This document shows, in pieces, positions 11,892-42,725 of a stretch of DNA of 42,725 nucleotides. A program made the translations under genes and the position numbers. The stretch is from Emcibacteraceae bacterium (GTDB lineage Bacteria > Pseudomonadota > Alphaproteobacteria > Sphingomonadales > Emcibacteraceae). The stretch lies in assembly GCA_028281625.1 (NCBI GenBank), contig JANQJN010000144.1, positions 1 through 42,725 on the forward strand. The letters are read 5' to 3'. The notes below the pieces were generated by a model. It saw nothing but the letters and a program-made list of their open reading frames with translations, was not told the DNA's origin and did not search any database. Positions within the stretch are counted from its first letter, which is position 1. Each line of letters opens with the position of its first letter.

Positions 11892-11897
11892 TACTTC

Positions 11898-25815: not shown

Positions 25816-28281
25816 TTATTCGCTTTTTAGGGAGTATATGGGATTAATGCGCGCGGCGGCCCATGCGCGGGTGGACGTTGTGCCGTATGCAAGCACAAAG
25901 GCAGCGAGCCCCGCCAGCAAGTATGGCATGATGCTCATATCAATGCGGGAACTAAAGCTTTCCAGCCAGTCACTCATCATCAACCAGGCTACCGGCCAGG
26001 CGATGACGTTCGCGATCAGAACCAGTTTGGATAGCTCCCAGGAGAGCATAGTGACGATATCCAGTACAGATGCACCCAGTACTTTACGGATACCGATCTC
26101 TTTCGTCCGGCGGTCGGCGATAAAGGACGCAAGACCATAAAGTCCGATACAGGCGATCATGGCGGCAATGCCAGCAAAGCCTATAAACATTCTGAATACA
26201 CGCCCTTCAACGGCGTAAAATCCTGCATAATCTTCATCAAGATAAGTGCGGCGGATAGGATAGCCTGATACATGCTGGCTCCAGACCATATCCACCAGGG
26301 CGGTTGCGGCTTCAAGCTGACCTTCCGCGGCCTTGATGGCCATCACGTTTGAACCTTCGGTCAGCATAAAGGAAAGGGCGGCTGGTTCGGAACGAACAGA
26401 ACTGAAGTGGATATCCTCGACAATTCCAACAATATTGAAATTCATTCGGTAGTCGTTTCCGCCAAAGGAAAAGGCGCTATATACTTGCTCACCAACGGCT
26501 TCCTGCGGATCGGTCCAGCCAGCTTGCCTCATGGCAGTTTCATTTAGGATTAGCCCGCCGGACACTTCTGTCCTTTCTGGTGAAATATTAGGAAGCAGAT
26601 CCGCCGAGAAATCATCACTAAGAGGACGGCCTGCTGCCATGGTCATACCAAGGGTGTCAAAATATCCGTCACTTACGGCGACACGGCGGGTAATAATTTG
26701 GAAATCGTCGCTCTCGCCTTCTTTTTGGTAAGAAGAGCCATCAGACAGATCCATTGTGGGGATCATGGAACCACCGGTCACATTTTCAATCAGCGGGCTT
26801 CGTTTTAGCTGATCGCGCATGGTGATAAAGGCGTTTCGCGCTTCGTTGTTATTCAGACGAACGGTTATGACATTATCGGGTTCGTACCCCAGCGGCTGAT
26901 TGAGGGCAAAATTGATCTGACTGTTCACGATCCCGGTGGCGGACATGAGGCCGATGGCGATTGAAAACTGAAGTATCACCAGTCCAGCACGGAGTTTCGC
27001 GGACCCCAATCCTTCATACGCCCGACCGCGGATTGCGCGGGCAGGCAGTATGCCGGATACGAATAGAGCCGGGTAAAGGCCGGACAAAATTCCAACCATT
27101 GCGGTAACTAGGACCAAGCCAGCCATAAAAGACGGTTGATAAACAGCATCAGCGTTAAGTGGTACACCAAGCATGGTGCCAAAGAACGGTACAAACATTT
27201 CAACGATCACCAATGCACCGATGAGGGCGATCAGGGCCATTACAGTGGATTCCACGATAAATTGACTCGCCACGTTAAAGCGGCTGGCACCAAGGACTTT
27301 ACGGACACCCACTTCTTTGACCCTGTTGCTGCTTTGAGCGATCTGCATATTGATAAAATTGAATGTGGCAATGGTCAGAGTTAGAATTGCAACAAACCCA
27401 AAAATGGTTACATCTGAGCGCTGACGCATGGGCTTGGAAAGTCCGGTGACTGTGTCACGCACACGCATTTCATTTTGAAGTTCAGTATTAAAATGAATAT
27501 CAGTGAGCGGCTGCAAGTATATGCCAGCATTTTCACCGAATTCCCTGTTGATATTGTTAATCAGATAATCGAGAACAGTTTGCGCGAAAGCCACATTGTC
27601 CAGGTTAGGGGCAAGTTTCACGAAATGATAAAGCTGATCGGAGAAATTACGTTCCCAGAATTGCGGATTGCCCCAAATTACGGGCAGCATTTCCATATGG
27701 ATGAAAATATTTGAAATTTGATGGCTGTTACTTTTGTTATCCTCAACGATAGATGTGATGGTAAAATCGTGTTCACCGTCGAGGGTAAAGCTTTTTCCGA
27801 CAGCGTCTTGTCCTGGGAACAGCAATTCCGCTGCAGCGCGGGTTACAACTGCGTCGTTGAGGTTCGGTAGTGCAATTTCGGTGCTGCCGCTTTCAAAATT
27901 AATACCGAAAAAATCAAAATAGTTAGGATCCACAAAGCTGATCACCTGATACTGTCGGTTATCGCCAATGTTCAGAAGCCGCTCCGATGTCGTGATGCGG
28001 GTCAGTTCCTCAATATCGTTAGGGTGGGCTTCAGCGATCACTTTTGAAAGTGGATTAAAAAATGTTGCAAAGCGGGCGCCGGAGCTGGTGCTTTCCCAGT
28101 TAAAGCGATAAACCCGCTCGCTGTCGGGTACGGCGGCATCAAAACTTGTTTCGTGGCTTACAAACAGGATGATCAGCATTGATATTGCCAAACCAACCGC
28201 AAGTCCACCAATATTTATTGCACTATAGAGGCGGTGTTTAAAAATACTGCGGAAAGACATAGTGAAGTGATTTAGCAACAT
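25816..28281 (-). CDS. ABC permease P5 (outlier of group A), double MacB_PCD/FtsX
   Basis: 821 aa, the most divergent of the ten. It begins MLLNHFTMSFRSIFKHRLYS, has the usual TM/PCD/TM halves, with coupling motifs RVKEVGVRKVLGA and RTKEIGIRKVLGA. The helix after the second motif reads MLSWELSKL instead of LxxWQFSKP, and the C-terminus is NPIYSLKSE rather than the NPxxALRYE of group A or ALHYE of group B. NFINMQIAQSS replaces NFMNLSTARAS. It sits exactly at the boundary of blocks A and B. The reading frame is intact, so it is likely functional but possibly with a different assembly partner or substrate (inference). SD AGGAA overlaps the P4 stop. Confidence 0.92.
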   Translation of the reverse strand: MLLNHFTMSFRSIFKHRLYSAINIGGLAVGLAISMLIILFVSHETSFDAAVPDSERVYRFNWESTSSGARFATFFNPLSKVIAEAHPNDIEELTRITTSERLLNIGDNRQYQVISFVDPNYFDFFGINFESGSTEIALPNLNDAVVTRAAAELLFPGQDAVGKSFTLDGEHDFTITSIVEDNKSNSHQISNIFIHMEMLPVIWGNPQFWERNFSDQLYHFVKLAPNLDNVAFAQTVLDYLINNINREFGENAGIYLQPLTDIHFNTELQNEMRVRDTVTGLSKPMRQRSDVTIFGFVAILTLTIATFNFINMQIAQSSNRVKEVGVRKVLGASRFNVASQFIVESTVMALIALIGALVIVEMFVPFFGTMLGVPLNADAVYQPSFMAGLVLVTAMVGILSGLYPALFVSGILPARAIRGRAYEGLGSAKLRAGLVILQFSIAIGLMSATGIVNSQINFALNQPLGYEPDNVITVRLNNNEARNAFITMRDQLKRSPLIENVTGGSMIPTMDLSDGSSYQKEGESDDFQIITRRVAVSDGYFDTLGMTMAAGRPLSDDFSADLLPNISPERTEVSGGLILNETAMRQAGWTDPQEAVGEQVYSAFSFGGNDYRMNFNIVGIVEDIHFSSVRSEPAALSFMLTEGSNVMAIKAAEGQLEAATALVDMVWSQHVSGYPIRRTYLDEDYAGFYAVEGRVFRMFIGFAGIAAMIACIGLYGLASFIADRRTKEIGIRKVLGASVLDIVTMLSWELSKLVLIANVIAWPVAWLMMSDWLESFSSRIDMSIMPYLLAGLAAFVLAYGTTSTRAWAAARINPIYSLKSE

Positions 28282-28290
28282 AATTTTTTC

Positions 28291-30777
28291 CTATTCATAT
28301 CTAAGAGCTTTAATGGGATTGGTTCGGGCAACACGGATCGAGTTTCCAGCGACTGTGCCCCATGCGATCATCAGCGCAGCAAGTCCGGCGATCAGACAGA
28401 AGCTTATGATCAGGATATTGTCGATCCGATAGGCAAAACTCTCCAGCCATCTTGACATGGCATAGAAAGACAGAGGCCAGGCGATAAGATTTGCGACGAT
28501 TACCGGTTTTGAAAACTGCCAAAGTAGAAGTTTGACAATATCAATAATCTTTGCGCCCATAACTTTGCGGATGCCGATTTCTTTGGTACGCCGTTCCGCA
28601 GTAAAACTTGCGAGGCCGTACAGGCCAAGACAGGCAATAAGGATAGCAAGTCCTGAAAAGGCAGCAAACATGGTGGCCTGGCCTTGTTCTTCGGTATATT
28701 GACCATCGATGGCGTCAGTTAAATGTCTGTAATTAAAGGAAAGTTCAGGGAATTCCTTCTGCCATATATCGTTTAGCTTATCTACTATCTCTTGTGGTTC
28801 ACCAGTATAGCGAACGGTGATTGATCGTGCAAAATTGGATTGGAGTGGGTAAATTTCTGCTCTTGCATTGCTACGCAAGCTTTCGAAATGAATATCTTTT
28901 GTGACGCCAATAACCTCGTATTCTGCTTCTCCACGTGCCTCTACATTGCCAACTCCCATATATACCGTCTTACCGATGGCAGCTTCAGCATCGCCCAAGC
29001 CCAGTTGACGAACAGCGGTCTGGTTTAGAATGAGTGATGCTCTATGTCCGTTGCCAGCAAGGATTACGTCCGTGTCAGCGCGTTCATCATTACGTCCAAC
29101 TTGGTAGTCACGGCCAGCAATTAGTTCAATATCAAATGTTTTAAGAAAATCTTCCCCGATCCGTCGATTGCTTACGATGATTGTTTCTTCCTGAGATAAC
29201 TCGGGAGTACGAACGCTTGTATTATTCTCAAATGTTTGTCCAGGGACGAAGCTAGCCCATGTCACATCTGTTGTTTCGGGAATTCTCTTGATCTCCGATA
29301 CCAGTAACGAAAATTTTTCCTGTACTACGTCGCGAGTTATACCTGTGATGGTTACAAGGTTATCTTTGCTGAAGCCTAGATCCATGTTTTTTGCATATTG
29401 CATCTGTCCAAAAACAACAGCTGTTGATACAAAAAGGCCGATTGACACAGAAAATTGAATGATTACCAAAGCAGATCTTAATTTTACCGACGCACCAGAT
29501 TCTATCGACTGGTTCGCTTTCAATATTTCAGCGGGTCGAAAACCTGAAAGAATAAATGCTGGGTATAATCCGCCAAGCAGTCCTACTATTACGGCCAGGA
29601 TGAAGATCTGCATTAAATCAGTCCCGCCGTAATTGACAATATATTCTTCGCCGAGAATTCCATTATAGAGAGGCAATGATATTTCTACGATGGCAAGGGC
29701 GATCAACAAACCGATCAATGTGAGTAAAACGGATTCACCTAAAAACTGCAGAACCAAGGTTTTTTTTGAAGCGCCAACGACTTTTCGCATGCTTACTTCT
29801 CTTGCTCGTTGACTGGCCCTGGCGGTCGATAGATTCATAAAATTTATGCTGGCAATAATCAAAATCAGGGTTGCAATGGCAGAAAAGGTCATAACTGTGT
29901 TGATGTTACCGCGGGGGCGGTAGTCACCTACACCGGATGATTTAAGGTGAAGATCTTTAATGTTAACGACTTCTAGTCCAACCCTGCTCGATACGGCCTC
30001 GTTAGGATCGCCAATCGGAAATTTTGGAAAATTTCGATCAATAAAAGCTGATAGCTGATTTGATATCTCGCTAATATTCCCTCGTTCGCGCAGTGCAAAA
30101 AACATGTGAGCATCTAGCGAGAACCAGTCTTCGAAAATCCATGCACTTTCTGACCAGTCTTCTTCCACAATAAGGGCCATCGACTTTATATGAATCTGAC
30201 TTTTTTCCGGCCAATCGCCGATCACCGCCTCCACAATATAGTCGCGCTTGAAAATGTCAAAATCCAGGGTCACGATCTGACCTAAAGGATTTTCACCTGC
30301 GAAATATTTGTTGGCGAGTGTTTCGTTGAGGGCAATCGTATTATTACCGCTTACAGCTTTTTCAATATCACCACTAATAAGGTTGAAATCAAATATGTTA
30401 ACGGCGTCAGGGTCGACCAGAGTGATTTCTTCTACAGTTAATGTATCGCCATCAACCAACATAGGACGGGTTCTGAGTACTCGTGTTGCCAATTCAATCT
30501 GTGGAAAATCCTTCTTGAGTGCTTCCATTACCGGACCCGGCGTTGATACAAAATGCATGGGATCCCTTCCCGGTGGGCTAAAGGATGTATGAGTTCTGAA
30601 GATCCGATCACCTTTTGACCAGTTGTTGTCATACGAAAGCTCGTCCCGGACAAAGAGGGCAATAAGCATGACGGCCGCAAGGCCTACAGCCAATCCCAAT
30701 ACATTGATTGCGCTAAAAAGTTTATGTCGCAGGATGTGGCGCCATGAGGTTACTATGTAGTTGGTGACAATCATCAT
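28291..30777 (-). CDS. ABC permease P4 (group A), double MacB_PCD/FtsX
   Basis: 828 aa, the longest of the set. Starts with two consecutive ATG codons overlapping the P3 stop (ATGA overlap of 4 nt), so translation is coupled; the second ATG is an equally possible start. Coupling motifs RAREVSMRKVVGA and RTKEIGIRKVMGA followed by LLLWQFSKP; ends NPIKALRYE. The group-A segment SGFRPAEILKANQS occupies the loop between the two halves. The second periplasmic domain has IAGRDYQVGRNDERAD and YMGVGNVEARGEAEYEVIGV, different from P1 and P2 in detail, consistent with specialised ligand contact. Confidence 0.93.
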   Translation of the reverse strand: MMIVTNYIVTSWRHILRHKLFSAINVLGLAVGLAAVMLIALFVRDELSYDNNWSKGDRIFRTHTSFSPPGRDPMHFVSTPGPVMEALKKDFPQIELATRVLRTRPMLVDGDTLTVEEITLVDPDAVNIFDFNLISGDIEKAVSGNNTIALNETLANKYFAGENPLGQIVTLDFDIFKRDYIVEAVIGDWPEKSQIHIKSMALIVEEDWSESAWIFEDWFSLDAHMFFALRERGNISEISNQLSAFIDRNFPKFPIGDPNEAVSSRVGLEVVNIKDLHLKSSGVGDYRPRGNINTVMTFSAIATLILIIASINFMNLSTARASQRAREVSMRKVVGASKKTLVLQFLGESVLLTLIGLLIALAIVEISLPLYNGILGEEYIVNYGGTDLMQIFILAVIVGLLGGLYPAFILSGFRPAEILKANQSIESGASVKLRSALVIIQFSVSIGLFVSTAVVFGQMQYAKNMDLGFSKDNLVTITGITRDVVQEKFSLLVSEIKRIPETTDVTWASFVPGQTFENNTSVRTPELSQEETIIVSNRRIGEDFLKTFDIELIAGRDYQVGRNDERADTDVILAGNGHRASLILNQTAVRQLGLGDAEAAIGKTVYMGVGNVEARGEAEYEVIGVTKDIHFESLRSNARAEIYPLQSNFARSITVRYTGEPQEIVDKLNDIWQKEFPELSFNYRHLTDAIDGQYTEEQGQATMFAAFSGLAILIACLGLYGLASFTAERRTKEIGIRKVMGAKIIDIVKLLLWQFSKPVIVANLIAWPLSFYAMSRWLESFAYRIDNILIISFCLIAGLAALMIAWGTVAGNSIRVARTNPIKALRYE

Positions 30778-33230
30778 TCGTACCTTAACGCTTTAATGGG
30801 ATTGGCTTTGGCGACACGCATACTGTTTCCGACAACTGTCGCCCAGGCAATGAGCAGTGCAAGGAAACCAGCAGCTACGCAGAAGCCAATGATGACGAAA
30901 TTATCAATCCGGTAGGTAAATCCTTCGAGCCAGCTTGACATAAAGTAAAAAGAAACAGGCCAGGCAATAAGGTTTGCAATCATCACTGGTTTTGAAAACT
31001 GCCAAACCAACAGGCGGACCACTTCAAAGACGCTAGCGCCCATCACTTTGCGGATGCCAATTTCCTTGATGCGGCGCTCTGCGGTGAAGCTCGCAAGCCC
31101 GTATAGTCCAAGACTTGAAATCACAATAGCGAGCCCTGCGAACAGCAGGAACAGCTGACCTTGATCCTGATCTGCTTTATATTGTTCAGCAATGCGGTCA
31201 TCCAGGAATGACTGAGTGAAGGGTACTTGTGGGAACATGTCTTTCCAGATGGCATTCACATCGCTTATTAATGCGGCCATGTTCTCAGTGGTGATCTTGA
31301 AAGTGAGGCGATAGTAAAATTCTTGATCAATGTAATAAAGCGTAGGGTTTGTCTCATCCCGGGTGGACCCAAGATGAATATCCGGAATGACACCGACAAT
31401 GGTAAAGGCAGTTTCATCAATCAGTCTTTTACCGATGGCATCTTCGGCGTTAGTAAATCCAAATTGGCCAATAGCGGATTCGTTGATCAGCACATTTGCC
31501 TCGTCACGCTGGTTCTGGCCATAAAGGGTGGTGATGTCATCCCCGCGGGTTTCGTCCAAATTCCTGCCGGCGATCATATTGATGCCGTAGGTTTTCAGAT
31601 AATCTTCATCAATACTTTGAATGCGGGAAAGAATAGGATCTACAGCCACGCCGCCAACATTGCCAAAACCGATGATCGCAACCATTCGATCAGCGGGAAC
31701 AGAAGAGGTTAGCGTCGCGTCGGTAATATCTGGGTGATCAAGCAGGCGCTGTTTTAAGATATTGGCTTGTCCCATCACAAGTGGATCACGGATCCGATCA
31801 AGGACAAGAAGATTCTCTTTATTATAGCCTGCATCGCGATTGATGCTGTAAGCAAGCTGCGAATAAACAACGAGCGCGGACACAATAAGCGAAATACAGA
31901 TGGTAAACTGAACCACCACCAGCACTGTTCTAAAACGAATTGATCCAATGGGCTCTGATCTTCCGGAAGAAAGCACGCGACTTGGCCTAAAGGATGACAT
32001 GACAAATGCCGGGTGCGATCCTGCGCCAACGGCAACTAGCAGTGTTAGCGCAATAAGTATCCCCAATGTCACTGGCGAATGCAGCGCATCAATGCCCATC
32101 ACTTTGTCAACCATGATGTTGTAATAGGGAAGGGAAACTTCCACCAGTACCAGTGCCAGGAGGAATGCCATAAAAGCCATAAAAGCCGCTTCGCTAAGGA
32201 ATTGCACCACAATATCCTTCTTGGCGGCACCAAGAACTTTACGCAGGGCCACTTCCTTTGATCGCAGGCTAGCGCGTGCGGTTGAAAGGTTCATAAAGTT
32301 AAAGCAGGCAATGACAAGGATCATAAAGGCGATGAGAGCGAAAGACACAATGGTGGTCATGCTGCCTTTTGGTTTAATCCGTGCAGATTCTGATCCTTTA
32401 AGGTGGATGTCCTCTAGTGGCATCAGATGCAGTTCCCATCGCTCGCTGGGGACGATGGTATCATTGGGTCGCGGACCACGACGATCAAGGAATGCGGGAA
32501 ATTTGGCTTCGGCTGTGGCTTCTGTGCCTTGCGCATTCATATTCACGTAAATGTATGTACCAATGTTAAACCAATCGTCTAAAAGGGACAGTGGGCCATT
32601 TTCATCGGCGGGCTGTGGGAATTCTGCGTAGCTTAACGGTATGATAATATCCAAGTCCATATGGGTCGTTGTCGGCAGGTCCCGAAGCACCGCGCTTACA
32701 CGGTAATCACGCCCATTACTTAGCGTAAGGCTGTTACCCACCACATTGGTTGAACCAAAATATTTGATCGCCATTTCTTCGGACAGGATCACAGCTGTGG
32801 GATCGGAGAGCGCTTGATCCTTGCTACCATGCAAGAACGGGTAGTCGAAAATTTCAAAAAAATTCGTTTCGGCAAAGGCTACTGTTTCCGCAATGTAATC
32901 CTGCCCGTTTCTGATGTTGCGGTCGGCATAGTAAAGCCTGGCAACCTGATCAAATTCAGGGAAATCCTGCTCTAGGAAGGGTTTTAATGGCCCCATGGTT
33001 GCCGCAAGGTGGAATGTTCTAGCGGTTGGCGGGTGGCTTATAAGCTCAACGCGGTAAATGTTGTCGCTATTGGGAATCCACGCATCGTAGTTAAGCTCAT
33101 CTTTGATGAAAAGCATAATCAGGATACAGGTTGCAAACCCAACAGCCAGACCAATGATGTTAATGGCGCTGAAAAGCTTGTGCTTGATAATATTGCGACT
33201 GGCGCTGACGAAGTAATTGGCAAGTTTCAT
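30774..33230 (-). CDS. ABC permease P3 (group A), double MacB_PCD/FtsX
   Basis: 818 aa. Coupling motifs RSKEVALRKVLGA and RRIKEIGIRKVMGA (Ile instead of Thr at the third place), then LLVWQFSKPVMIANLIAWP; ends NPIKALRYE. The inter-half loop reads SSFRPSRVLSSGRSE, unlike the FRPAExLKANQS of P1, P2 and P4, so it is a distinct branch within group A. Its periplasmic domains share little beyond the framework with its neighbours (for example IIPLSYAEFPQPADENGP). RBS GAGGT before ATG; the stop TGA overlaps the P4 start. Confidence 0.93.
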   Translation of the reverse strand: MKLANYFVSASRNIIKHKLFSAINIIGLAVGFATCILIMLFIKDELNYDAWIPNSDNIYRVELISHPPTARTFHLAATMGPLKPFLEQDFPEFDQVARLYYADRNIRNGQDYIAETVAFAETNFFEIFDYPFLHGSKDQALSDPTAVILSEEMAIKYFGSTNVVGNSLTLSNGRDYRVSAVLRDLPTTTHMDLDIIIPLSYAEFPQPADENGPLSLLDDWFNIGTYIYVNMNAQGTEATAEAKFPAFLDRRGPRPNDTIVPSERWELHLMPLEDIHLKGSESARIKPKGSMTTIVSFALIAFMILVIACFNFMNLSTARASLRSKEVALRKVLGAAKKDIVVQFLSEAAFMAFMAFLLALVLVEVSLPYYNIMVDKVMGIDALHSPVTLGILIALTLLVAVGAGSHPAFVMSSFRPSRVLSSGRSEPIGSIRFRTVLVVVQFTICISLIVSALVVYSQLAYSINRDAGYNKENLLVLDRIRDPLVMGQANILKQRLLDHPDITDATLTSSVPADRMVAIIGFGNVGGVAVDPILSRIQSIDEDYLKTYGINMIAGRNLDETRGDDITTLYGQNQRDEANVLINESAIGQFGFTNAEDAIGKRLIDETAFTIVGVIPDIHLGSTRDETNPTLYYIDQEFYYRLTFKITTENMAALISDVNAIWKDMFPQVPFTQSFLDDRIAEQYKADQDQGQLFLLFAGLAIVISSLGLYGLASFTAERRIKEIGIRKVMGASVFEVVRLLVWQFSKPVMIANLIAWPVSFYFMSSWLEGFTYRIDNFVIIGFCVAAGFLALLIAWATVVGNSMRVAKANPIKALRYE

Positions 33231-33242
33231 TATTGGTACCTC

Positions 33243-35717
33243 TTATTCATATCTTAGCGCTTTGATTGGATTGGCTTTGGCGACACGCATACTGTTACCC
33301 GCGACCGTGGCCCAGGCGATGAGCAGCGCAGCTATGCCGGCAATGGCGCAGAAACTAAATATGAGGACATCCTCAATTCGGTAAACAAAGCTTTCGAGCC
33401 AGATCGACATGGCGTAAAAGGAAACGGGCCATGCGATCAGATTGGCGATGATCACCGGTTTTGAAAATTGCCAGACCAGAAGTTTCACAATATCGTAAAC
33501 GGTTGCGCCCATCACTTTACGCACACCAATTTCTTTGGTGCGGCGTTCGGCGGTAAAGCTGGCAAGGCCATATAAACCCAAGCAGGCAATAAAAATTGCC
33601 AAACCGGAGAAGGCGGCGAACATGGTCATTTCACCTTGCTCAGTTGCATATTGCTCAGCCAATTGATCAATGGCGTGATCGTAGCCAAATGGAATGCTGG
33701 GTACTTCCTGTTCCCAGATTGCCTGTGCGGCACTTACCATTGCAGCCGGGTCACCAGTAAAACGGATGGTGATATATTGGGCAAACTCTGGCCTGAGCTC
33801 GAATATTTCCGGACGCATTTCTTTCTTGAGAGTATCCAGGTAGACATCCGGAATAACACCAATGATGGTGTGTTCTCTGATCACCTCTCCTTCGTCACCA
33901 CTAAGCGGTCGATAAAGCAGTTTGCCAACAGCTTCCTGAGGTGTGCCCAGCGCAAATCTGTTCAGTGCTGTTTCATTTATGATCAGGGCACTGGAATGAC
34001 CTTCACCAGCAACAATACTTTCATAGGTGGCCCGTTCATCATTCATGTTGATGTCGTAATATCGTCCGGCAAGTAGAGGAATTTGGTAGGTTTCGAAATA
34101 ATCATATCCGATGCCGCGATTGCCCATCAGCAGGCTTTCTGTTTCCGGCATTTCCGGCGTGCGCATTCCGGTGTTGTTTTCTGTTGGTCTGCCCGGTGCA
34201 TCGTTGGACCAGGTTACGCTAATGGCTTGCGGCAAGCGCTTGTATTCCTCAACCAGCAGCGATAGTTTTTCACTCGCCGCATCGCGGAAAAGATTATTGA
34301 TGACCAGAAGATTTTCCTTGTTAAACCCAAGATCTTTATTTTTTGCATAAAGCATCTGGCCGTAGACCACCGCAGTGGATACAAAGAGCGTGATACTGAC
34401 CGCAAATTGGAAAATAACCAATGCTGCTCTCAATTTAGCCGAAGCACCTGTTTCTGAGGATTGGTTGGCCTTCAGGACTTCCGCAGGTCGAAATCCGGAT
34501 AGAATGAGTGCTGGATATATGCCGCCCAGCACTCCAACCGATACAGCGAGACCAATAATGATCAAAACGTCAGTGGATGCATAATTAAAGGCTAGTTGTT
34601 TGCCAATTGTCTGATTGTATATAGGTAAAGCCATTTCTACGATGACGACAGAGACAAACAAAGCAACTAAGGTGATGATTATGGATTCACCGATAAATTG
34701 GACGACCAGATTTTTTCTTGATGCGCCCATTACTTTGCGCAGGCTGACTTCCTTGGCACGCTGACTGGCGCGGGCGGTGCTTAAATTCATAAAATTGATA
34801 CTGGCGATTACCAGTATCAAAATGGCAACCGCTGAAAAGGTAATTACGGTAGCCATGCTGCCCATTGGCTTATACTCGCCATTGGATGGTCCTAAAAGAT
34901 GCAGATCTTCGATGTTCTGTGAATTAAGAAGTATAAAACTGGAAACGCGGTCACCGTTATCCTGTTCCGGGAAATGACGATCGATAAAGGCAGGCATCTG
35001 GTCATTTATGTCAGTGATATCAGAGCCTGGGGTCAGGCTAAAATAAAGGTGAGCATTAACGGAAAACCACTGGTCGAACATCCAGCTCTGTACCTTCCAT
35101 TCTTCTTCAACAATTGAGACAATGGCGGAGGCGGCCAGCTGACTGTTTTCTGGCATATCTTCGATGATTGCCCTTACAACGAATTCGCGCTCGTAAACAT
35201 CAGCATTAATTGTGATAGATTGGCCAAGTGCACTGCCATCCGGAAAGTATTTGTCGGCTAATGTTTTGTTCAGCACGAGTGAACTTTGATCTTCAAGAGT
35301 ATTTTCCAGACTTCCTTCTAAGACATTAAAATCAAAAATCTGAAAAAAGCCGGGATCTACAAGACTGATCTGTTCTTCAAAATACTGATTATCCATTATG
35401 AAGGTTGCGCGTTTATTGGCTTCTCGTGACGCTTCGACCACCTGTGGGAAGTCCTGCTCAAGCGCGTGATAAATCTTGCCGGCAGCAACCGAAAACACCA
35501 TTGGTGGACGCCCTGTAGGGAGGAAAGTCTGATGCATGCGGTAAATATTATCCGCATTATCCCAAAATCTATCGTAAGAGACCTCATCACGTACAAAGAG
35601 TGCGATGAGCATACATGCGGCAAGCCCGATGGCAAGCCCAAGTATGTTGATGGCGCTGAATAACTTATGGTTATAAATGTTGCGCCAGGCGCTTACGGTA
35701 TAGTTTTTCAGGATCAC
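33243..35717 (-). CDS. ABC permease P2 (group A), double MacB_PCD/FtsX
   Basis: 824 aa, starting at GTG (35717) with GAGAGGAAAG upstream; no in-frame ATG fits this conserved N-terminus (ILKNYTVSAWRNI). Coupling motifs RAKEVSLRKVMGA and RTKEIGVRKVMGA with LLVWQFSKP; ends NPIKALRYE. Close to P1 in the membrane parts (INILGLAIGLA; ASINFMNLSTARAS; SGFRPAEVLKANQS), more different in the periplasmic domains. Upstream, between it and P1, lies a 12-nt vestige of a permease end. Confidence 0.93.
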   Translation of the reverse strand: MILKNYTVSAWRNIYNHKLFSAINILGLAIGLAACMLIALFVRDEVSYDRFWDNADNIYRMHQTFLPTGRPPMVFSVAAGKIYHALEQDFPQVVEASREANKRATFIMDNQYFEEQISLVDPGFFQIFDFNVLEGSLENTLEDQSSLVLNKTLADKYFPDGSALGQSITINADVYEREFVVRAIIEDMPENSQLAASAIVSIVEEEWKVQSWMFDQWFSVNAHLYFSLTPGSDITDINDQMPAFIDRHFPEQDNGDRVSSFILLNSQNIEDLHLLGPSNGEYKPMGSMATVITFSAVAILILVIASINFMNLSTARASQRAKEVSLRKVMGASRKNLVVQFIGESIIITLVALFVSVVIVEMALPIYNQTIGKQLAFNYASTDVLIIIGLAVSVGVLGGIYPALILSGFRPAEVLKANQSSETGASAKLRAALVIFQFAVSITLFVSTAVVYGQMLYAKNKDLGFNKENLLVINNLFRDAASEKLSLLVEEYKRLPQAISVTWSNDAPGRPTENNTGMRTPEMPETESLLMGNRGIGYDYFETYQIPLLAGRYYDINMNDERATYESIVAGEGHSSALIINETALNRFALGTPQEAVGKLLYRPLSGDEGEVIREHTIIGVIPDVYLDTLKKEMRPEIFELRPEFAQYITIRFTGDPAAMVSAAQAIWEQEVPSIPFGYDHAIDQLAEQYATEQGEMTMFAAFSGLAIFIACLGLYGLASFTAERRTKEIGVRKVMGATVYDIVKLLVWQFSKPVIIANLIAWPVSFYAMSIWLESFVYRIEDVLIFSFCAIAGIAALLIAWATVAGNSMRVAKANPIKALRYE

Positions 35718-35743: not shown

Positions 35744-38224
35744 TTATTCATATCTCAGGGCGTTTACCGGATTGGCCTTTGCGACACGCATGCTGTTGCT
35801 GGCGACGGTTCCCCACGCGATAATGAGTGCGGTGACACCGGCCATCAGACAGAATGCGATGATCAGGTTGACCTCAATACGGTAAACAAAATTTTCAAGC
35901 CAGACGCTCATGGCATAGAACGAAATCGGCCATGCCAGCAGATTGGCGATAATCACCGGTTTTGAAAACTGCCAAACCAGTAGTTTCACCACTTCAAATA
36001 CACTGGCACCCATCACTTTTCTGATGCCAATTTCCTTGGTGCGGCGTTCGGCCGTGAAGCTAGCAAGGCCATAAAGTCCCAGGCAGGCGATGAATATTGC
36101 CAGGCCGGAAAATGCCGCGAACATGCTCGCCTGTCCTTGCTCCGCCTGATACTGGCGGTCAATGGCTTCCGCGACAAATTCACCGTCAAACGGAATGCTC
36201 GGGATTTCACGTTCCCAAAGAGCTTTTACTTGTGCAAAAAATGTTTCTGGATCACCTGTAAAGCGCGCGGACAGGATTGACGCATAATTTGAATCCAGAT
36301 CATATATTTCGGGACGAATTGTGCTTTTTAAGCTGTCAAAATGCACATCCGGCACCACGCCTATCACTTCATAAGTGGCAGTCAGGCCTTCTTCCGGTTG
36401 GCCAGCACCAGCGAAAATCAGCTTGCCGATGGCTTCTTCCGGTGTGCCAAGACCAAGGCGGCGGACGGCCGATTCATTGATCATGGTTTGACCAGTATAA
36501 ATATTCCCTTCGCGCAGATCACTGGTGAAAACCGTTCTGTCCCCGCGCTCAAGGTTATATTCGCGGCCAGCGACAAGGTCGACCTGATATGTCGTGAAAT
36601 AATCGTGACTTATACTCCGGTTACCAATCAAAACAGCATCTTCAGTGGACTGGCCTTCAATATGAACGATGGTGTTGTTCTGATGTACATAGCCTGGCAT
36701 AAAGTTTGACGTGCTTACAGCGACGGCTTGCGGCATGCGGCGTATTTCAGTAAGCAGAAGGTCCATTTTTTCGAGTGCGACATCACGGTACATTTCACCA
36801 ACCGCAAGGATGTTGTCTTTCTTAAAGCCAAGATCCATATTTTTAGCATATAGCATCTGTCCGTAAACAACTGCGGTGGAAACAAACAGCGTGATGGATA
36901 CTGCAAATTGAAGGATCACCAGGGCGTAACGTAGCTTTACAGATGAGCTTGTTTCCACGGACTGATTTGCCTTCAGATTTTCTGCTGGTCTAAAACCTGA
37001 CAAGATAAAAGCGGGATAAATACCCCCCATAAAACCAACGGCGAAGGCAAGGAATATAACGCCCAGGATATCATTACTTGCGTAATTGATCGCAAGTTCC
37101 TTATCCAGGATCTCGTTATAGGTAGGCAGGGCCATTTCAACAATCGCAAGGGATATCAGAAGACCGAGAATGGTCAGTAAAATGGATTCGCCTAGAAACT
37201 GGATCACAAGATCCTTCCTTGATGCTCCCATTACTTTGCGAAGGCTGACTTCCTTTGCGCGCTGACTGGCGCGTGCTGTGCTTAGGTTCATAAAATTGAT
37301 CGCAGCGATCACAAGAATAAGCCCTGCCACAGTGGCAAAAATCACCACTGTGTTCATATTACCGGTGGGATGATATTCGCCTTCACGATTTGATTTAAGG
37401 TGTAAATCCTTAATGTTCATTGCTGACGTGGAAACTAGATCGGATGTATTATCCGCACCACCGAATGGCACTTCCGGGAAATTACGGTCTACAAAAGAAA
37501 CCATGTTATCGTTGATGTCCGCGATGTTTGTACCTTCGTGGGTCGCGAAGTAAAGCTGGCTGTTGGTTGAGAACCACGCATCAAACATATAGGGCTGATC
37601 CTGCCAGGCCGGCTCATCAATTGGGATGAGTGCTTCAGCAATCACCTGGCTGTTTTCAGCCATATCTTTGATTACTGCGGCGACAGTGTAATCGCGCTGA
37701 AACAGATCAAAGTCGATGGTAACAGTCTGACCAATCGGATTTGAGCTGCTAAAATATTTCTCAGCCAGCGTTTCATTAAGAACTATATTGCTGATATTAT
37801 CCAGCGCACCGTCGATATTTCCTGCAACCACATCAAGATCAAATATGGCTGCGAAGTCTGCATCAACAAGTGAGATATCATCAACAAAATACTGGTCACC
37901 CAGTATAACTGTTGGCTGCTGCCTTGAAATCCGTGACGCGTGTGTGACTTGTGGAAAGTCCTTCTTTAGTGCGTGAATGACAGGTCCTGGTGTCATTGCA
38001 GATTCAATGGGGTCCCGTCCAGGTACACTGAAGGTAATATGAATGCGGTATATATTGTCCGCTTTCGTCCAGAAGCTGTCATAGGACAGTTCATCACGAA
38101 CGAAAAGCGCAATCAAAATACAGGACGCAAGCCCGATGGCGAGACCAAGAATATTGATCGCGCTAAAAAGCTTGTGCTTGAAAATGTTGCGCCATGCGCT
38201 TCTTAAATAATTGGTAAGGAGCAT
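35744..38224 (-). CDS. ABC permease P1 (group A), double MacB_PCD/FtsX
   Basis: 826 aa; the first permease after the ATPase. TM helices at about 21-43, 292-315, 343-365, 385-410, 434-455 and three more between about 690 and 805: eight in all, i.e. two MacB-like four-helix halves in one chain. First periplasmic domain about 45-290, second about 460-685. Coupling motif 1 RAKEVSLRKVMGA (322-334) and motif 2 RTKEIGIRKVMGA with LLVWQFSKP. Ends NPVNALRYE. MacB itself has one half per chain and works as a dimer, so this protein should be a covalent pseudo-dimer. RBS AGGATA. Confidence 0.94.
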   Translation of the reverse strand: MLLTNYLRSAWRNIFKHKLFSAINILGLAIGLASCILIALFVRDELSYDSFWTKADNIYRIHITFSVPGRDPIESAMTPGPVIHALKKDFPQVTHASRISRQQPTVILGDQYFVDDISLVDADFAAIFDLDVVAGNIDGALDNISNIVLNETLAEKYFSSSNPIGQTVTIDFDLFQRDYTVAAVIKDMAENSQVIAEALIPIDEPAWQDQPYMFDAWFSTNSQLYFATHEGTNIADINDNMVSFVDRNFPEVPFGGADNTSDLVSTSAMNIKDLHLKSNREGEYHPTGNMNTVVIFATVAGLILVIAAINFMNLSTARASQRAKEVSLRKVMGASRKDLVIQFLGESILLTILGLLISLAIVEMALPTYNEILDKELAINYASNDILGVIFLAFAVGFMGGIYPAFILSGFRPAENLKANQSVETSSSVKLRYALVILQFAVSITLFVSTAVVYGQMLYAKNMDLGFKKDNILAVGEMYRDVALEKMDLLLTEIRRMPQAVAVSTSNFMPGYVHQNNTIVHIEGQSTEDAVLIGNRSISHDYFTTYQVDLVAGREYNLERGDRTVFTSDLREGNIYTGQTMINESAVRRLGLGTPEEAIGKLIFAGAGQPEEGLTATYEVIGVVPDVHFDSLKSTIRPEIYDLDSNYASILSARFTGDPETFFAQVKALWEREIPSIPFDGEFVAEAIDRQYQAEQGQASMFAAFSGLAIFIACLGLYGLASFTAERRTKEIGIRKVMGASVFEVVKLLVWQFSKPVIIANLLAWPISFYAMSVWLENFVYRIEVNLIIAFCLMAGVTALIIAWGTVASNSMRVAKANPVNALRYE

Positions 38225-38278: not shown

Positions 38279-38956
38279 TTAGGCGCGCATGCTTTCTGTC
38301 ACCACGTGACCATCAAGAAGATTGATCGTGCGGCGGGCGTAGTCAGCATGTGACGGACTATGGGTAACCATTACGATGGTTGTGCCTTCCTCATTCAGCT
38401 TTTGAAGCATTTCCATCACTTCCTGACCGTGAGCGGTATCAAGGTTACCGGTCGGCTCGTCAGCGAGGATCATGCTTTGGTTGCCAACCACGGCGCGGGC
38501 GACAGCAACACGCTGCTGCTGACCACCGGAAAGCTGGCTTGGCATATGTTTGGCGCGGTGTGCGATACCGACTTTATCCATCACGGCAGCAACGCGTTCT
38601 TTACGCTCACTGGCAGGGATATCGTGATAAAGAAGGGCCAGTTCGATATTTTCAAAAACCGACAACTCGTCAATCAGGTTAAAGCTCTGGAAGATGAAAC
38701 CGATGTGCTGTTTTCTGATCACACCAAGTTGTGCTTCAGAATAGCCAGCGACATCTTCACCGTTGAAGAAATAGTGACCACTGGTCGGTGTATCGAGCAT
38801 ACCAACGATGTTGAGCAGCGTTGATTTACCACAACCGGATGGTCCCATGATCGCTACGAATTCACCGTGTTCGATCTCGATATTCACATTGTTAAGCGCC
38901 ACCGTTTCCACTTCGTCAGTGCGGTAAGCTTTTGTAAGGTCTTGTAGTTTTAACAT
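38279..38956 (-). CDS. LolD/MacB-type ABC ATPase
   Basis: 225 aa, a free-standing ATP-binding subunit. Walker A GPSGCGKST (38-46), Q-loop Gln90 in FIFQSFNL, signature LSGGQ (142-146), Walker B MILADE with catalytic Glu167, D-loop TGNLD, H-loop His199 in VTHS. All catalytic residues are intact. The length and FNLIDELSVFENI pattern match the LolD/MacB/FtsE (type VII) family. It is the only ATPase in the operon, and lies between the adaptor and ten permeases, so it most likely powers all of them. RBS AAGGAC. Confidence 0.96.
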   Translation of the reverse strand: MLKLQDLTKAYRTDEVETVALNNVNIEIEHGEFVAIMGPSGCGKSTLLNIVGMLDTPTSGHYFFNGEDVAGYSEAQLGVIRKQHIGFIFQSFNLIDELSVFENIELALLYHDIPASERKERVAAVMDKVGIAHRAKHMPSQLSGGQQQRVAVARAVVGNQSMILADEPTGNLDTAHGQEVMEMLQKLNEEGTTIVMVTHSPSHADYARRTINLLDGHVVTESMRA

Positions 38957-38999: not shown

Positions 39000-40316
39000 T
39001 TAGGTTTCTGTAAGTTTTAAGCGGTCCATGTCCATGAAGCTGGTATAAGGTGATGTAATCACGCGTTCACCAACCTGTAGTCCATCGATCACTTCAATGA
39101 AGTTGTTGTTTCTGCGGCCAAGGCGAATGTTGCGCTTCACTGCAAACTCGCTGTCATCACTGACAACAAAGATCCAGCTGCCACCGGTATCCTGATAGAA
39201 GGCTCCATACGGGATAAGCACAGCTTCAGAAGAATCGCCAAGGGTCAGCTTCGATTGAAGCGTTTGGCCGCGGCGAATATCTTCCGGTTGTTCAGCTGTA
39301 AACACCATATCGATTTTGAACTGGTTATTTTGAACATCCGGGTAGATCTTCTTGATGCGCATTGGGAATTCTTCGCTATCCCCAGGGCGCACATAAACAC
39401 CGTTTTGGCCAAGATCAACACGGTTCAGGTAAAACTCATCGATTTGAACTTCCAGTTTGAAGTTATAAGGATCATCGATTTGTCCGATCGCTTCACCGCG
39501 TCCCACAGTTTGCCCCAGCTCAAGATCAAAACCTGAAAGCTGACCCTCAATCTGGGCTTTCATGTTTAGGTTCTCAAGGCTGGTGCGGGCGATGCCAAGG
39601 TTTCTTTCAAGGTTTTGTGAATCAAGGCGAGAACGCTCAAGCTGTTGTTCCTGCATGCGTGCGTCAGTTTCCTGAGACATGCGGGTCACTTCGAGCATTT
39701 TGACCTTATAGGTAAGATCTTCTTCTGCCTCGTCCAATTGTGCCTTGGTGAAGTTACCATTGGCGTAAAGTTTCCGATATCTTTCCACGTTGCGGGTCAT
39801 TTTTTGTATTTCATATTCCAGCGTTGTTATCTCTGTAATATGCCGCAATCTGTTTTGTTCGAGTTGAAGCTCCAGCGTGCGCATGGCGTTTAACTCACCA
39901 GCCACACGGGCTTCGTTTTCAAAAACCTGGATTTGAAGAGTTGGGTTTGAAAGCTCAACAATCTCTTGTCCTTGCGTGACGATGGCGCCATCCTCGACAA
40001 GAATGTTCTCCACGCGGCCACCTTCCGTCGCTGAGACGAACACAGTGGTGAGCGGGGTGACCTTACCTCTGATTGGAATATAGTCTTCATAAACGCCGCT
40101 GGTTACTTGTGAGACCACCAAGCGACTTTCTTCGACGCGGAAGGTTCGGCCACCCGTTGCGCTTTCAATAATTAAGTAAAGAACGAAGGCGGCAATAAGT
40201 CCACCTGCGCCCCACATTGCCATTTTGACCGGGTTTCTTTTCTTTTCGATAACACGGTCCATGCCAGTGCCTGCGTGGGCACCTCCTGGTTTTTTTATGT
40301 TGTCCATTTTAGTCAT
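39000..40316 (-). CDS. HlyD/MacA-type periplasmic adaptor protein
   Basis: 438 aa. One N-terminal membrane anchor at about 33-51, then barrel-sandwich halves at about 88-125 (ENILVEDGAIVTQGQEIVEL) and 250-282, a long charged coiled-coil hairpin at about 128-248, a beta-barrel at 283-365, and a membrane-proximal domain ending LKLTET. This is the architecture of membrane-fusion proteins that connect inner-membrane MacB-like pumps to an outer-membrane TolC-type duct; no TolC homologue is present in this window. It is the first gene after the sigma-54 promoter. No clear Shine-Dalgarno precedes the ATG (an in-frame ATG three codons later is possible), which may limit translation of the leading gene. 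Confidence 0.92.
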   Translation of the reverse strand: MTKMDNIKKPGGAHAGTGMDRVIEKKRNPVKMAMWGAGGLIAAFVLYLIIESATGGRTFRVEESRLVVSQVTSGVYEDYIPIRGKVTPLTTVFVSATEGGRVENILVEDGAIVTQGQEIVELSNPTLQIQVFENEARVAGELNAMRTLELQLEQNRLRHITEITTLEYEIQKMTRNVERYRKLYANGNFTKAQLDEAEEDLTYKVKMLEVTRMSQETDARMQEQQLERSRLDSQNLERNLGIARTSLENLNMKAQIEGQLSGFDLELGQTVGRGEAIGQIDDPYNFKLEVQIDEFYLNRVDLGQNGVYVRPGDSEEFPMRIKKIYPDVQNNQFKIDMVFTAEQPEDIRRGQTLQSKLTLGDSSEAVLIPYGAFYQDTGGSWIFVVSDDSEFAVKRNIRLGRRNNNFIEVIDGLQVGERVITSPYTSFMDMDRLKLTET

Positions 40317-40360: not shown

Positions 40361-40376
40361 TGCAAAGAGTGTGCCA
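40361..40376 (-). promoter_or_regulatory. Sigma-54 -24/-12 promoter of the exporter operon
   Basis: On the minus strand the site reads TGGCACACTCTTTGCA: TGGCAC at 40376-40371, five bases, then TTGCA at 40365-40361. The GG and GC dinucleotides are separated by exactly 10 nt, as sigma-54 holoenzyme needs, and it matches the TGGCAC-N5-TTGC consensus fully. Predicted start about 40350, giving a leader of about 35 nt before the adaptor gene. The adjacent regulator is of the sigma-54-activating type. Confidence 0.9.
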
Positions 40377-40410
40377 ATTAATAAACCTTTGAAAATGAAT
40401 GATTTTATGC

Positions 40411-40440
40411 TTTACTGTTCGAAAATGGACAGTATATACT
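40411..40440 (+). promoter_or_regulatory. Candidate sigma-70-type promoter of the regulator gene
   Basis: TTTACT at 40411-40416 (four of six to TTGACA), an 18-bp spacer and TATACT at 40435-40440 (five of six to TATAAT). Start expected near 40447, about 52 nt before the regulator ATG. One palindrome lies in the spacer and another over the start point, so occupancy would block it. Confidence 0.5.
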
Positions 40441-40475
40441 GTTCGCAATTGAACACATGTGTACGAATCTGAACA
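40416..40475. promoter_or_regulatory. Three TGTTC-N6-GAACA palindromes, candidate enhancer (UAS) sites
   Basis: Sites: 40416-40431 (TGTTC, GAAAAT, GGACA), 40440-40455 (TGTTC, GCAATT, GAACA; perfect) and 40460-40475 (TGTAC, GAATCT, GAACA). Centres are 24 and 20 bp apart, and about 73, 97 and 117 bp upstream of the sigma-54 start. That is the usual position and number for binding by dimers of an NtrC-family activator through its Fis-type helix-turn-helix. Confidence 0.75.
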
Positions 40476-40498: not shown

Positions 40499-41917
40499 AT
40501 GGAAAAACGGGGCGCTATTCTCATTGTTGATGATGATGAAGACATTCTGGTGGCTGGAAAATTGTTGCTGAAACGGCATTTCGCCGACGTGGTTACAATC
40601 AGCCAACCAAACCAAATTGCTGCGTCCATGCGCAAGCAGGATTTCGACGCCATCCTTCTTGATATGAATTTCGGCCCAGGCCGCAGTTCCGGTGAGGAAG
40701 GATTTCAATGGTTGGCGGAAATTTTAAAAATTGATCCCGAAGCGGTGGTGATTATGATCACCGCGCACGGCGGTGTTAATATTGCTGTCGAAGCCATGAA
40801 AATGGGGGCAACAGATTTTGTATCGAAACCCTGGCAAAATGAAAAGGTTGTTGCGACACTTTCTGCCGCAGTGAAACTTCGTAAAACCCGAAACAAGGCC
40901 GCGACCCTAAAGCAGGCCAATCGCACACTTGTCGAGGACAGTGGTGGGCAGCAGATTATTGGAAATTCTGAAGCGCTTAAACAAATCCAGTCGATTATCG
41001 AACGTACCGCGCCGACGGATGCCAACGTGCTTATTGTCGGTGAAAATGGAACGGGTAAGGAACTGGTGGCGCGTGAACTGCACCGTCTTTCCAACCGGTC
41101 CGACGAAATTTTCCTCAGTGTGGATATGGGGGCAATCAGCGAAAGCCTGTTTGACAGTGAACTTTTTGGTCATAAGAAAGGCTCTTTCACAGATGCAAAA
41201 GATGATCGGGTTGGAAGATTGCAAGCCGCCTCGGGAGGAACACTATTTCTAGATGAGATCGGAAACTTACCACTTCATCTGCAGGCAAAGCTTCTCACTG
41301 TACTTGAGCAAAGAAATGTGACACCGGTAGGCTCAAACCAATCAGTACCCATTGATGTTCGGGTGATCGCGGCAACAAACCTTACGCAAAAGCAACTTAA
41401 TGATGAAAGCCGCTTTCGCCAAGATCTTCTATTTAGGCTTAATACGGTGGAAATTGAAGTGCCGCCCCTTCGAGAACGTCCAGGCGATATTGAGGAAATT
41501 GCAAATCACTATATCGATCTTTACTGCAGAAAATACGATAAAGAGGTAAAGAAACTTTCGGCCGATGCCCTAAAGGCCATTAAGGCCTACGAATGGCCAG
41601 GCAATGTTCGCGCTCTTCGTCATGCCATTGAACGGGCGGTGATCCTAAGCCAAGATAAAACCTTCTCAGCGAGCGATTTTTCACTGGAAAGCCAACCGGG
41701 TAGTGCTGGTGAAGTGGACAGTAAGCTTTCCCTGAGGACGGAAAATGGTGGTGAAGAATTTGTGCTTCCTGAAGGCAACCTCAATCTTGAGAAGATGGAA
41801 TATCTGCTGATTGAAAGATCTCTCAAGAAACACCGCTACAATATTTCTCATGCGGCAAAGGAGCTGGGCTTGACGCGCGCAGCACTGTATCGAAGGATGG
41901 AAAAACATGGGTTTTAA
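40499..41917 (+). CDS. NtrC-family sigma-54-dependent response regulator
   Basis: 472 aa in three domains. Receiver 1-120: acidic pocket Asp11-Asp12, phospho-acceptor Asp55, Thr88 and Lys110. Central AAA+ about 152-385: Walker A GENGTGKE (181-188), sigma-54 contact loop GSFTDA (228-233, in place of GAFTGA), Walker B FLDE (252-253 acidic pair), and RxDLLFRLN. C-terminal Fis-type helix-turn-helix (AAKELGLTRAALYRRMEKHGF at the end). It should be phosphorylated by the overlapping kinase and activate the divergent sigma-54 promoter. CAGGG is the likely ribosome site. It overlaps the kinase gene by 11 nt. Confidence 0.95.
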   Translation: MEKRGAILIVDDDEDILVAGKLLLKRHFADVVTISQPNQIAASMRKQDFDAILLDMNFGPGRSSGEEGFQWLAEILKIDPEAVVIMITAHGGVNIAVEAMKMGATDFVSKPWQNEKVVATLSAAVKLRKTRNKAATLKQANRTLVEDSGGQQIIGNSEALKQIQSIIERTAPTDANVLIVGENGTGKELVARELHRLSNRSDEIFLSVDMGAISESLFDSELFGHKKGSFTDAKDDRVGRLQAASGGTLFLDEIGNLPLHLQAKLLTVLEQRNVTPVGSNQSVPIDVRVIAATNLTQKQLNDESRFRQDLLFRLNTVEIEVPPLRERPGDIEEIANHYIDLYCRKYDKEVKKLSADALKAIKAYEWPGNVRALRHAIERAVILSQDKTFSASDFSLESQPGSAGEVDSKLSLRTENGGEEFVLPEGNLNLEKMEYLLIERSLKKHRYNISHAAKELGLTRAALYRRMEKHGF

Positions 41918-42725
41918 ACGCTTCAGCGTTCTGCTTACCATTCGCCTTGTGTTGCTGTTTCTCACGGTTGCAAGTCTGGCGATACTGGTGATCAGCCCGG
42001 GTTTTCTTGCGGCAAGCCTTCTTATTACTCTGATCGCCCTGTTTCAGATTTTTGAAATTGTACGCTTTGTGCAGCTTACCAATGATGACCTTACCCGTTT
42101 TCTGGATGCGATGCGGTACGGCGATTTTGGTCAAAAGTTTGATCATGCAGGGATGGGAGCTGGCTTCATTGAGCTTGGAGAAGCGATTACCGATATTCTG
42201 GAGCGTTTCAGGCAATTTCGTGGTCAGCAGGAAGAAGAACTTAAGCATTTAAAAGCGCTGATTGAACATGTGCCGGTGCCACTAATGTCGATCAGAAGTG
42301 ACGGGAGCGTTCTCATTCACAACAATGCGGCGCGGCGCTTGTTTGGCTCAACTCACGTAGCCAATGTCACTGATCTTTCACAGTTTGGTGAAGAATTTAG
42401 AAACAAGCTTATGACCATTAAGCCGGGTGAGCGGCATTTGGTGACCTTTAGAATCGACGATCTTGAACAAACATTGACGGTAGCATCGACTCAAATAATG
42501 TCCGCCGGAAAAATGGAAAAGATCATATCGCTCCAGGACATCCAAAGTGAACTTGATGTGGCGCAGCTTAAGGCCTGGCAGGATCTTGTGCGGGTGCTGA
42601 CCCACGAAATTATGAATAGTATCACGCCGGTTTCATCGCTTGCAAAAACGGCCGCTGATCTGGTCGAAGATGCCATCGGGAAAGCGGAAGGGCAAACCGA
42701 ACTCGTGGAAGAACTTACTGATGTC
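41907..42725 (+). CDS. NtrY-like sensor histidine kinase (3' end cut off)
   Basis: 273 residues are visible before the window ends. Two adjacent hydrophobic stretches (about 12-48) form a short membrane anchor with almost no periplasmic loop. Next comes a HAMP/coiled-coil-like linker (RFLDAMRYGDFGQKF), a PAS-like domain at about 110-210 (ALIEHVPVPLMSIRSDGSV), and a DHp helix with the phospho-acceptor His in VLTHEIMNSITPVSSL, the NtrY-type H-box. The ATPase domain lies beyond the edge. The lack of a sizeable periplasmic domain means that the signal is sensed inside the membrane or cytoplasm, or through a partner such as the exporter (inference). Translation is coupled to the regulator through the 11-nt overlap. 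Confidence 0.9.
   Translation, partial: MGFKRFSVLLTIRLVLLFLTVASLAILVISPGFLAASLLITLIALFQIFEIVRFVQLTNDDLTRFLDAMRYGDFGQKFDHAGMGAGFIELGEAITDILERFRQFRGQQEEELKHLKALIEHVPVPLMSIRSDGSVLIHNNAARRLFGSTHVANVTDLSQFGEEFRNKLMTIKPGERHLVTFRIDDLEQTLTVASTQIMSAGKMEKIISLQDIQSELDVAQLKAWQDLVRVLTHEIMNSITPVSSLAKTAADLVEDAIGKAEGQTELVEELTDV

Follow-up and report, generated by a model that had tools for sequence, protein, structure and literature searches.

Sigma-54 control of FtsX-like (COG0577) ABC permeases has been predicted computationally (PLoS One 2025; PMC12316311), and the general link between sigma-54 and these permeases is therefore already published. The article describes enrichment at class level, in gamma-Proteobacteria, Opitutia, and Bacteroidia; neither TolC nor MacB is named in the main text. 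The locus described here resembles the predicted cases in that the same permease superfamily is tied to sigma-54 promoters by computation. It goes beyond the accessible content of that article in its enhancer code, its unlinked permeases, its inclusion of tolC, and its alphaproteobacterial setting. It offers an alphaproteobacterial case, from a marine bacterium, of sigma-54-controlled FtsX-like exporters, which we otherwise found, in the open-access papers searched, as a class-level prediction only. The open-access literature searched yielded nothing else relevant on sigma-54 combined with MacB, TolC, or MacAB, and nothing on the unlinked permeases, tolC recruitment, a TGTNC-N6-GNACA operator, or the alphaproteobacterial setting. 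The enhancer code, the dispersed permeases, and the recruitment of tolC thus appear to be new.

The window is the whole stretch of DNA analyzed, 42,725 nucleotides, which is one entire contig of a 205-contig assembly of an Emcibacteraceae bacterium. The encoded system resembles MacAB-TolC in having a membrane fusion protein (MFP) adaptor, a MacB-like ATPase, permeases with MacB_PCD and FtsX domains, and an unlinked TolC, which together make up a tripartite exporter of the MacB superfamily. Unlike in MacAB-TolC, however, separate genes encode the ATPase and the permease, the permeases are fused duplicates (each with two MacB_PCD plus two FtsX domains), ten permeases accompany one adaptor-ATPase pair, and tolC is unlinked but has the promoter in common. 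The system also resembles the darobactin exporter DarBCD in its profile matches: the top NCBIfam matches of the ATPase and the adaptor are DarD and DarC, while the permeases match ADOP best and DarB second. All of these scores lie below the curated cutoffs (DarB, 160.7 against 700; DarC, 205.4 against 450; DarD, 279.8 against 375; ADOP duplicated permease TIGR03434, 274.5 and 294.9 against 622.3). Homology to MacB, ADOP, and DarB suggests that the substrates may be peptide-like or envelope-active molecules. On the regulatory side, the likeness is to NtrC, GlrR, and PrsR of PEP-CTERM systems, in both domain layout and promoter anatomy (upstream repeats, integration host factor [IHF], and sigma-54), although the regulator scores 378.2 against a cutoff of 502.6 for PrsR (TIGR02915).

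Promoter elements upstream of the adaptor gene

The minus strand of the window carries TTGGCACACTCTTTGCA, and TGGCACNNNNNTTGCA fills positions 40376 to 40361 exactly. This putative sigma-54 −24/−12 box (TGGCACACTCTTTGCA; 40361 to 40376, minus strand) has its GG and GC elements at the correct spacing. A sequence-only reading of this DNA had described TGGCAC-N5-TTGCA as a perfect sigma-54 promoter. That description fits the core hexamer and pentamer, but the base after TGGCAC is an A, whereas the sigma-54 consensus has a G. The motif is the single copy with no mismatch in the 42.7-kb window. Matches with up to two mismatches number 18, against a mean of 18.65 in shuffled sequence; because this count equals chance, looser matches are uninformative, and mismatched sites were ignored. 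As the same reading had stated, the adaptor gene follows the box at a distance of 45 bp, with its ATG at 40316; the predicted transcription start is at about 40350 (with the −12 element at 40362), leaving a 34-nucleotide leader up to the ATG. A gene for sigma-54 itself, rpoN, was found in the genome (E value of 2e-64). Taken alone, the box would be suggestive, not proof.

Three tandem inverted repeats of the form TGTNC-N6-GNACA lie upstream of the box between 40475 and 40416, all on the minus strand. UAS1 (TGTTCAGATTCGTACA; 40460 to 40475) and UAS2 (TGTTCAATTGCGAACA; 40440 to 40455) emerged from an alignment of the relatives' upstream regions and a genome repeat search, and UAS3 (TGTCCATTTTCGAACA; 40416 to 40431) from the same alignment and a family scan. 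Their centers fall near −118, −98, and −74 relative to the predicted start, which is the usual place of NtrC-type enhancers. To our knowledge, the repeat differs from the sites bound by NtrC and GlrR. Measured from the T of TGG, the centers lie at −91.5, −71.5, and −47.5 in the window's genus; three repeats are present in that genus and two in other genera, at fixed distances. In an alignment of the regions upstream of adaptor orthologues, box and repeats recur at fixed spacing in all 14 family relatives with readable sequence, from three genera, which is the outcome anticipated by the proposal that the same −24/−12 element should precede the adaptor genes of related operons.

An IHF-like site (AAAATCATTCATT; 40394 to 40406, minus strand) lies between the repeats and the box and matches 7 of 9 positions of YAANNNNTTGATW. 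Across 49 distinct promoters, in whose choice the IHF consensus played no part, this consensus fits at one exact offset, −30 from the T of TGG (mean of 7.45 of 9; next best offset, 5.6), so the window's own site, at 7 of 9, is below average. An IHF alpha gene was found in the genome. Judged by its DNA sequence, the box is one part of a complete, ordinary, well-formed sigma-54/NtrC-type promoter.

The divergent regulator gene has its own sigma-70-like promoter in the same interval (TTTACT-18-TATACT; 40411 to 40440, plus strand). The hexamers of this promoter, compared by eye, are kept in the same-genus upstream regions, and the count of the pattern is not above that in shuffles. UAS3 overlaps this promoter and UAS2 abuts it, which suggests that the regulator gene may be autoregulated.

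Regulator, kinase, and operon genes

The gene opposite the operon (40499 to 41917, plus strand) encodes, as the sequence-only reading had proposed, an NtrC-family response regulator. The 472-residue protein has a receiver domain, an AAA+ sigma-54-interaction domain, and a Fis-type helix-turn-helix (domain scan). Its sigma-54 loop reads GSFTDA, and every orthologue has G[SA]FTDA in place of the canonical GAFTGA. A Desulfovibrio study lists GAFTDA and GSFTGA as activation-compatible loop variants (PMC4641369).

A histidine kinase gene follows (41907 to 42725, plus strand) and is truncated by the contig end. Related kinases are 450 to 476 residues long with two transmembrane segments. At the N terminus, two adjacent hydrophobic segments leave hardly any of the protein in the periplasm, as in intramembrane-sensing kinases as far as hydropathy can show; a weak PAS match and then the ATPase domain follow. 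Sensing of transporter activity by this kinase would be only an analogy to BceAB-type systems. Same-genus relatives (L017, L021, L023, and others) have a further ABC ATPase gene after the kinase gene; at the corresponding place, the window is hidden by the contig end.

Fourteen minus-strand open reading frames follow one another between 40316 and 10236, separated by −4 to 63 bp, in agreement with the unidirectional, closely spaced array described earlier. The first encodes a periplasmic adaptor of the HlyD/RND-MFP type (39000 to 40316) and the second an ABC ATPase similar to MacB, LolD, and DarD (38279 to 38956), both assigned from domain and NCBIfam profiles. Ten permeases of 807 to 828 residues follow: permease 1 at 35744 to 38224, 2 at 33243 to 35717, 3 at 30774 to 33230, 4 at 28291 to 30777, 5 at 25816 to 28281, 6 at 23368 to 25800, 7 at 20929 to 23355, 8 at 18439 to 20865, 9 at 16004 to 18427, and 10 at 13562 to 15991. 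The double MacB_PCD and FtsX arrangement was established for the two permeases scanned, one of them permease 1. Identity is about 40 to 58% among permeases 1 to 4, 53 to 66% among permeases 6 to 10, and about 27 to 34% between the two groups, with permease 5 standing apart; these permeases do not appear to be recent copies. Arrays of MacB/FtsX-type permeases without an ATPase of their own pose a puzzle as to their power source and the reason for their number.

As a qualification to the name exporter operon, the last two genes encode a gamma-glutamyltranspeptidase (11898 to 13520), which is operon linked in several same-genus relatives, and an amidohydrolase (10236 to 11891), neither of which is a transporter subunit. 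Among mapped relatives, this pair of genes (10236 to 13520, minus strand) occurs only in the window's genus; the enzymes may process or recycle the exported substrate. Beyond them, a gene for an acyltransferase-family membrane protein (9070 to 10239, plus strand) is convergent with the operon and overlaps the amidohydrolase gene by 4 bp. Past this gene, and again in operon orientation, lies a gene for a patatin-like phospholipase with POTRA and Omp85 domains (6736 to 8961, minus strand), which also adjoins the operon in three relatives (G026, G027, and G028).

The close spacing suggests that transcription from the sigma-54 promoter reads through all 30 kb. Alternatively, the promoter could be real and transcription of the array broken up, such that the sigma-54 transcript would cover only the proximal genes and the distal permeases, gamma-glutamyltranspeptidase, and amidohydrolase would rely on internal promoters or be attenuated. 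We consider this unlikely, albeit with real points in its favor. A stable, GC-rich hairpin (20921 to 20897, minus strand; −22 kcal/mol; z = −2.3), a possible attenuator or processing site, lies in the 63 bp that separate permeases 7 and 8, but it is followed by TTTATAAATTT, with no strong T-tract. Some gaps measure 41 to 63 bp, yet most fall between −4 and 26 bp. In relatives, the operons mapped in full hold just one to six permeases, and an unlinked permease array on contig C81 contains an internal sigma-54/repeat promoter; in the window, however, there is no second strict sigma-54/repeat site, and sigma-70-like matches inside the operon are no more frequent than in shuffles.

Regulon members and their conservation

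When the genome was searched for two repeats side by side, one further place emerged, before an unlinked permease gene with a sigma-54 box at the same distance. In a wider search, TGGCAYN5TTGCW occurs at 32 sites, 8 of which have paired repeats, one of these being counted with one mismatch in each repeat. These 8 are the operon, six promoters of unlinked FtsX/ADOP-type permeases (contigs C48, C67, C81 [two], C99, and C193), and one TolC-type channel gene (contig C196). Exporter genes thus lie behind 8 of 8 paired-repeat sites versus 0 of 24 unpaired sites (Fisher's exact P = 1/C(32,8), about 1e-7), none of the latter being located before a permease gene or tolC. On this evidence, the promoter belongs to a regulon comprising the operon, unlinked permeases, and tolC. 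With near-identical promoters at unlinked pump genes and tolC, one two-component sensor is therefore apparently able to switch on the whole exporter. The earlier suggestion that such a promoter would make the array inducible by the two-component pair agrees with the sequence, but that account overlooked the enhancer repeats, the IHF-like element, and the regulon members located elsewhere in the genome.

Permease places in the genome total 26, of which ten are in the window and sixteen elsewhere, some truncated by contig ends. At least six permease genes elsewhere lack a sigma-54/repeat promoter (genome G000, L160 to L165; C131:13347, C24:3030, C191:1377, C188:14539, C178:464, and C81:8023), so the regulon excludes some permeases, which may be under different control. 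From the shared control and the single close adaptor orthologue, we infer that the unlinked permeases use the ATPase and adaptor of the operon, a core that would then act in trans. A promoter code common to unlinked permeases, tolC, and the adaptor-ATPase operon is sequence evidence of joint production, and the products may work as one machine.

The search for related loci returned close relatives only; those with names are metagenome-assembled alphaproteobacteria, several of them labeled Kordiimonadaceae or Emcibacteraceae. Across the family, 16 of the 32 genomes together hold 49 sites that fit the strict box-plus-repeats pattern, versus 1 match for a reversed control. Behind these sites are 15 adaptor operons, 25 permeases, 7 tolC genes, 1 S41 peptidase gene, and 1 contig edge with no readable gene; an adaptor operon, permease, or tolC thus follows 47 of the 48 assignable sites. 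All 15 adaptor-positive genomes have sites; among the 17 adaptor-negative genomes, the draft G025 alone has one, at a permease. The sole nontransporter gene behind such a promoter encodes a secreted S41-family peptidase (L126, 3034 to 4377, minus strand; genome G026).

A single tolC orthologue was detected, at the threshold used, in each family genome with a match. The complete promoter precedes it in six of the nine operon-positive same-genus genomes with a tolC match, and also in a fragment from G029. Among the family's tolC upstream regions, it is absent in G020, G021, and G031, in operon-negative genomes, and in other genera. A housekeeping tolC thus seems to have acquired a sigma-54 promoter inside a single genus; one gain followed by two losses there would fit a rough adaptor tree, though not firmly.

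The proposal that the divergent NtrC-type regulator drives a sigma-54 promoter is supported by the box, its spacing, and the tandem repeats in the 14 relatives, by rpoN and the regulator's domains, and by a family-wide pattern in which operon and promoter either both occur or are both missing. In principle, other regulators might act at these repeats alongside the NtrC-type protein. We find it very improbable that a different regulator binds them instead, for instance to repress the divergent regulator gene, with the NtrC-type protein acting elsewhere. Their overlap with or abutment on the sigma-70-like promoter of that gene would suit such a role, but unlinked permeases and tolC have the repeats as well, in every case upstream of a sigma-54 box and with no regulator gene adjoining, and repeats, operon, and regulator share one pattern of presence and absence. 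That TGGCAC-N5-TTGCA is a chance match and the operon has another promoter is scarcely credible: some other exact matches in the genome do lack an obvious promoter role, but neither the strict conservation at fixed spacing to the repeats nor the exporter genes behind nearly all assignable sites would then be expected.

Proposed switch and occurrence outside the family

The explanation we favor, with a probability of roughly 90%, is a kinase-regulator-repeat-IHF-sigma-54 switch that would control the operon, unlinked permeases, and tolC together. The promoter parts, their spacing and conservation, and the regulon membership can be read from the DNA itself, and the steps between them are proposed as follows. 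The neighboring kinase would phosphorylate the NtrC-type regulator, which would bind the tandem TGTNC-N6-GNACA repeats, whose centers precede the predicted start by about 74, 98, and 118 bp. A DNA bend, probably made by IHF, would bring the regulator to RNA polymerase-sigma-54, and its AAA+ domain would open the promoter. The adaptor-ATPase-permease operon would then be transcribed, perhaps on through the two terminal enzyme genes, and the same regulator would activate the unlinked permease genes and tolC via the same sites. With regulator and sites in common, all three layers of the tripartite ABC exporter would therefore rise together, and one core would serve many permeases. The system provides a regulon open to testing, together with a defined operator and a candidate for the sensor.

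A more far-reaching version, which we advance tentatively and at rather less than even odds, is that one sigma-54 activator runs a dispersed modular exporter, in which a single adaptor-ATPase-TolC core would serve up to about two dozen interchangeable fused-duplicate permeases without an ATPase or adaptor of their own, and the kinase, lacking a periplasmic domain, would read transporter state in the membrane, as in BceAB-type systems.

Blind pattern scans covered 385 genomes from the class and 398 from the phylum. Six matches, of which five come from other classes of this phylum, had a single repeat; none lies at an operon of this type, and they were judged to be due to chance. Paired-repeat matches outside the family also number six (G206, G302, G171, G147, G689, and G711), and all six lie at adaptor or ATPase-permease operons. 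A regulator orthologue was not detected in the stretches of G206 and G302 examined; it adjoins the promoter in G171, G147, G689, and G711. In G147, the first gene of the regulated ATPase-permease operon encodes a 114-residue small secreted protein instead of an adaptor (L170, 5377 to 5721, minus strand).
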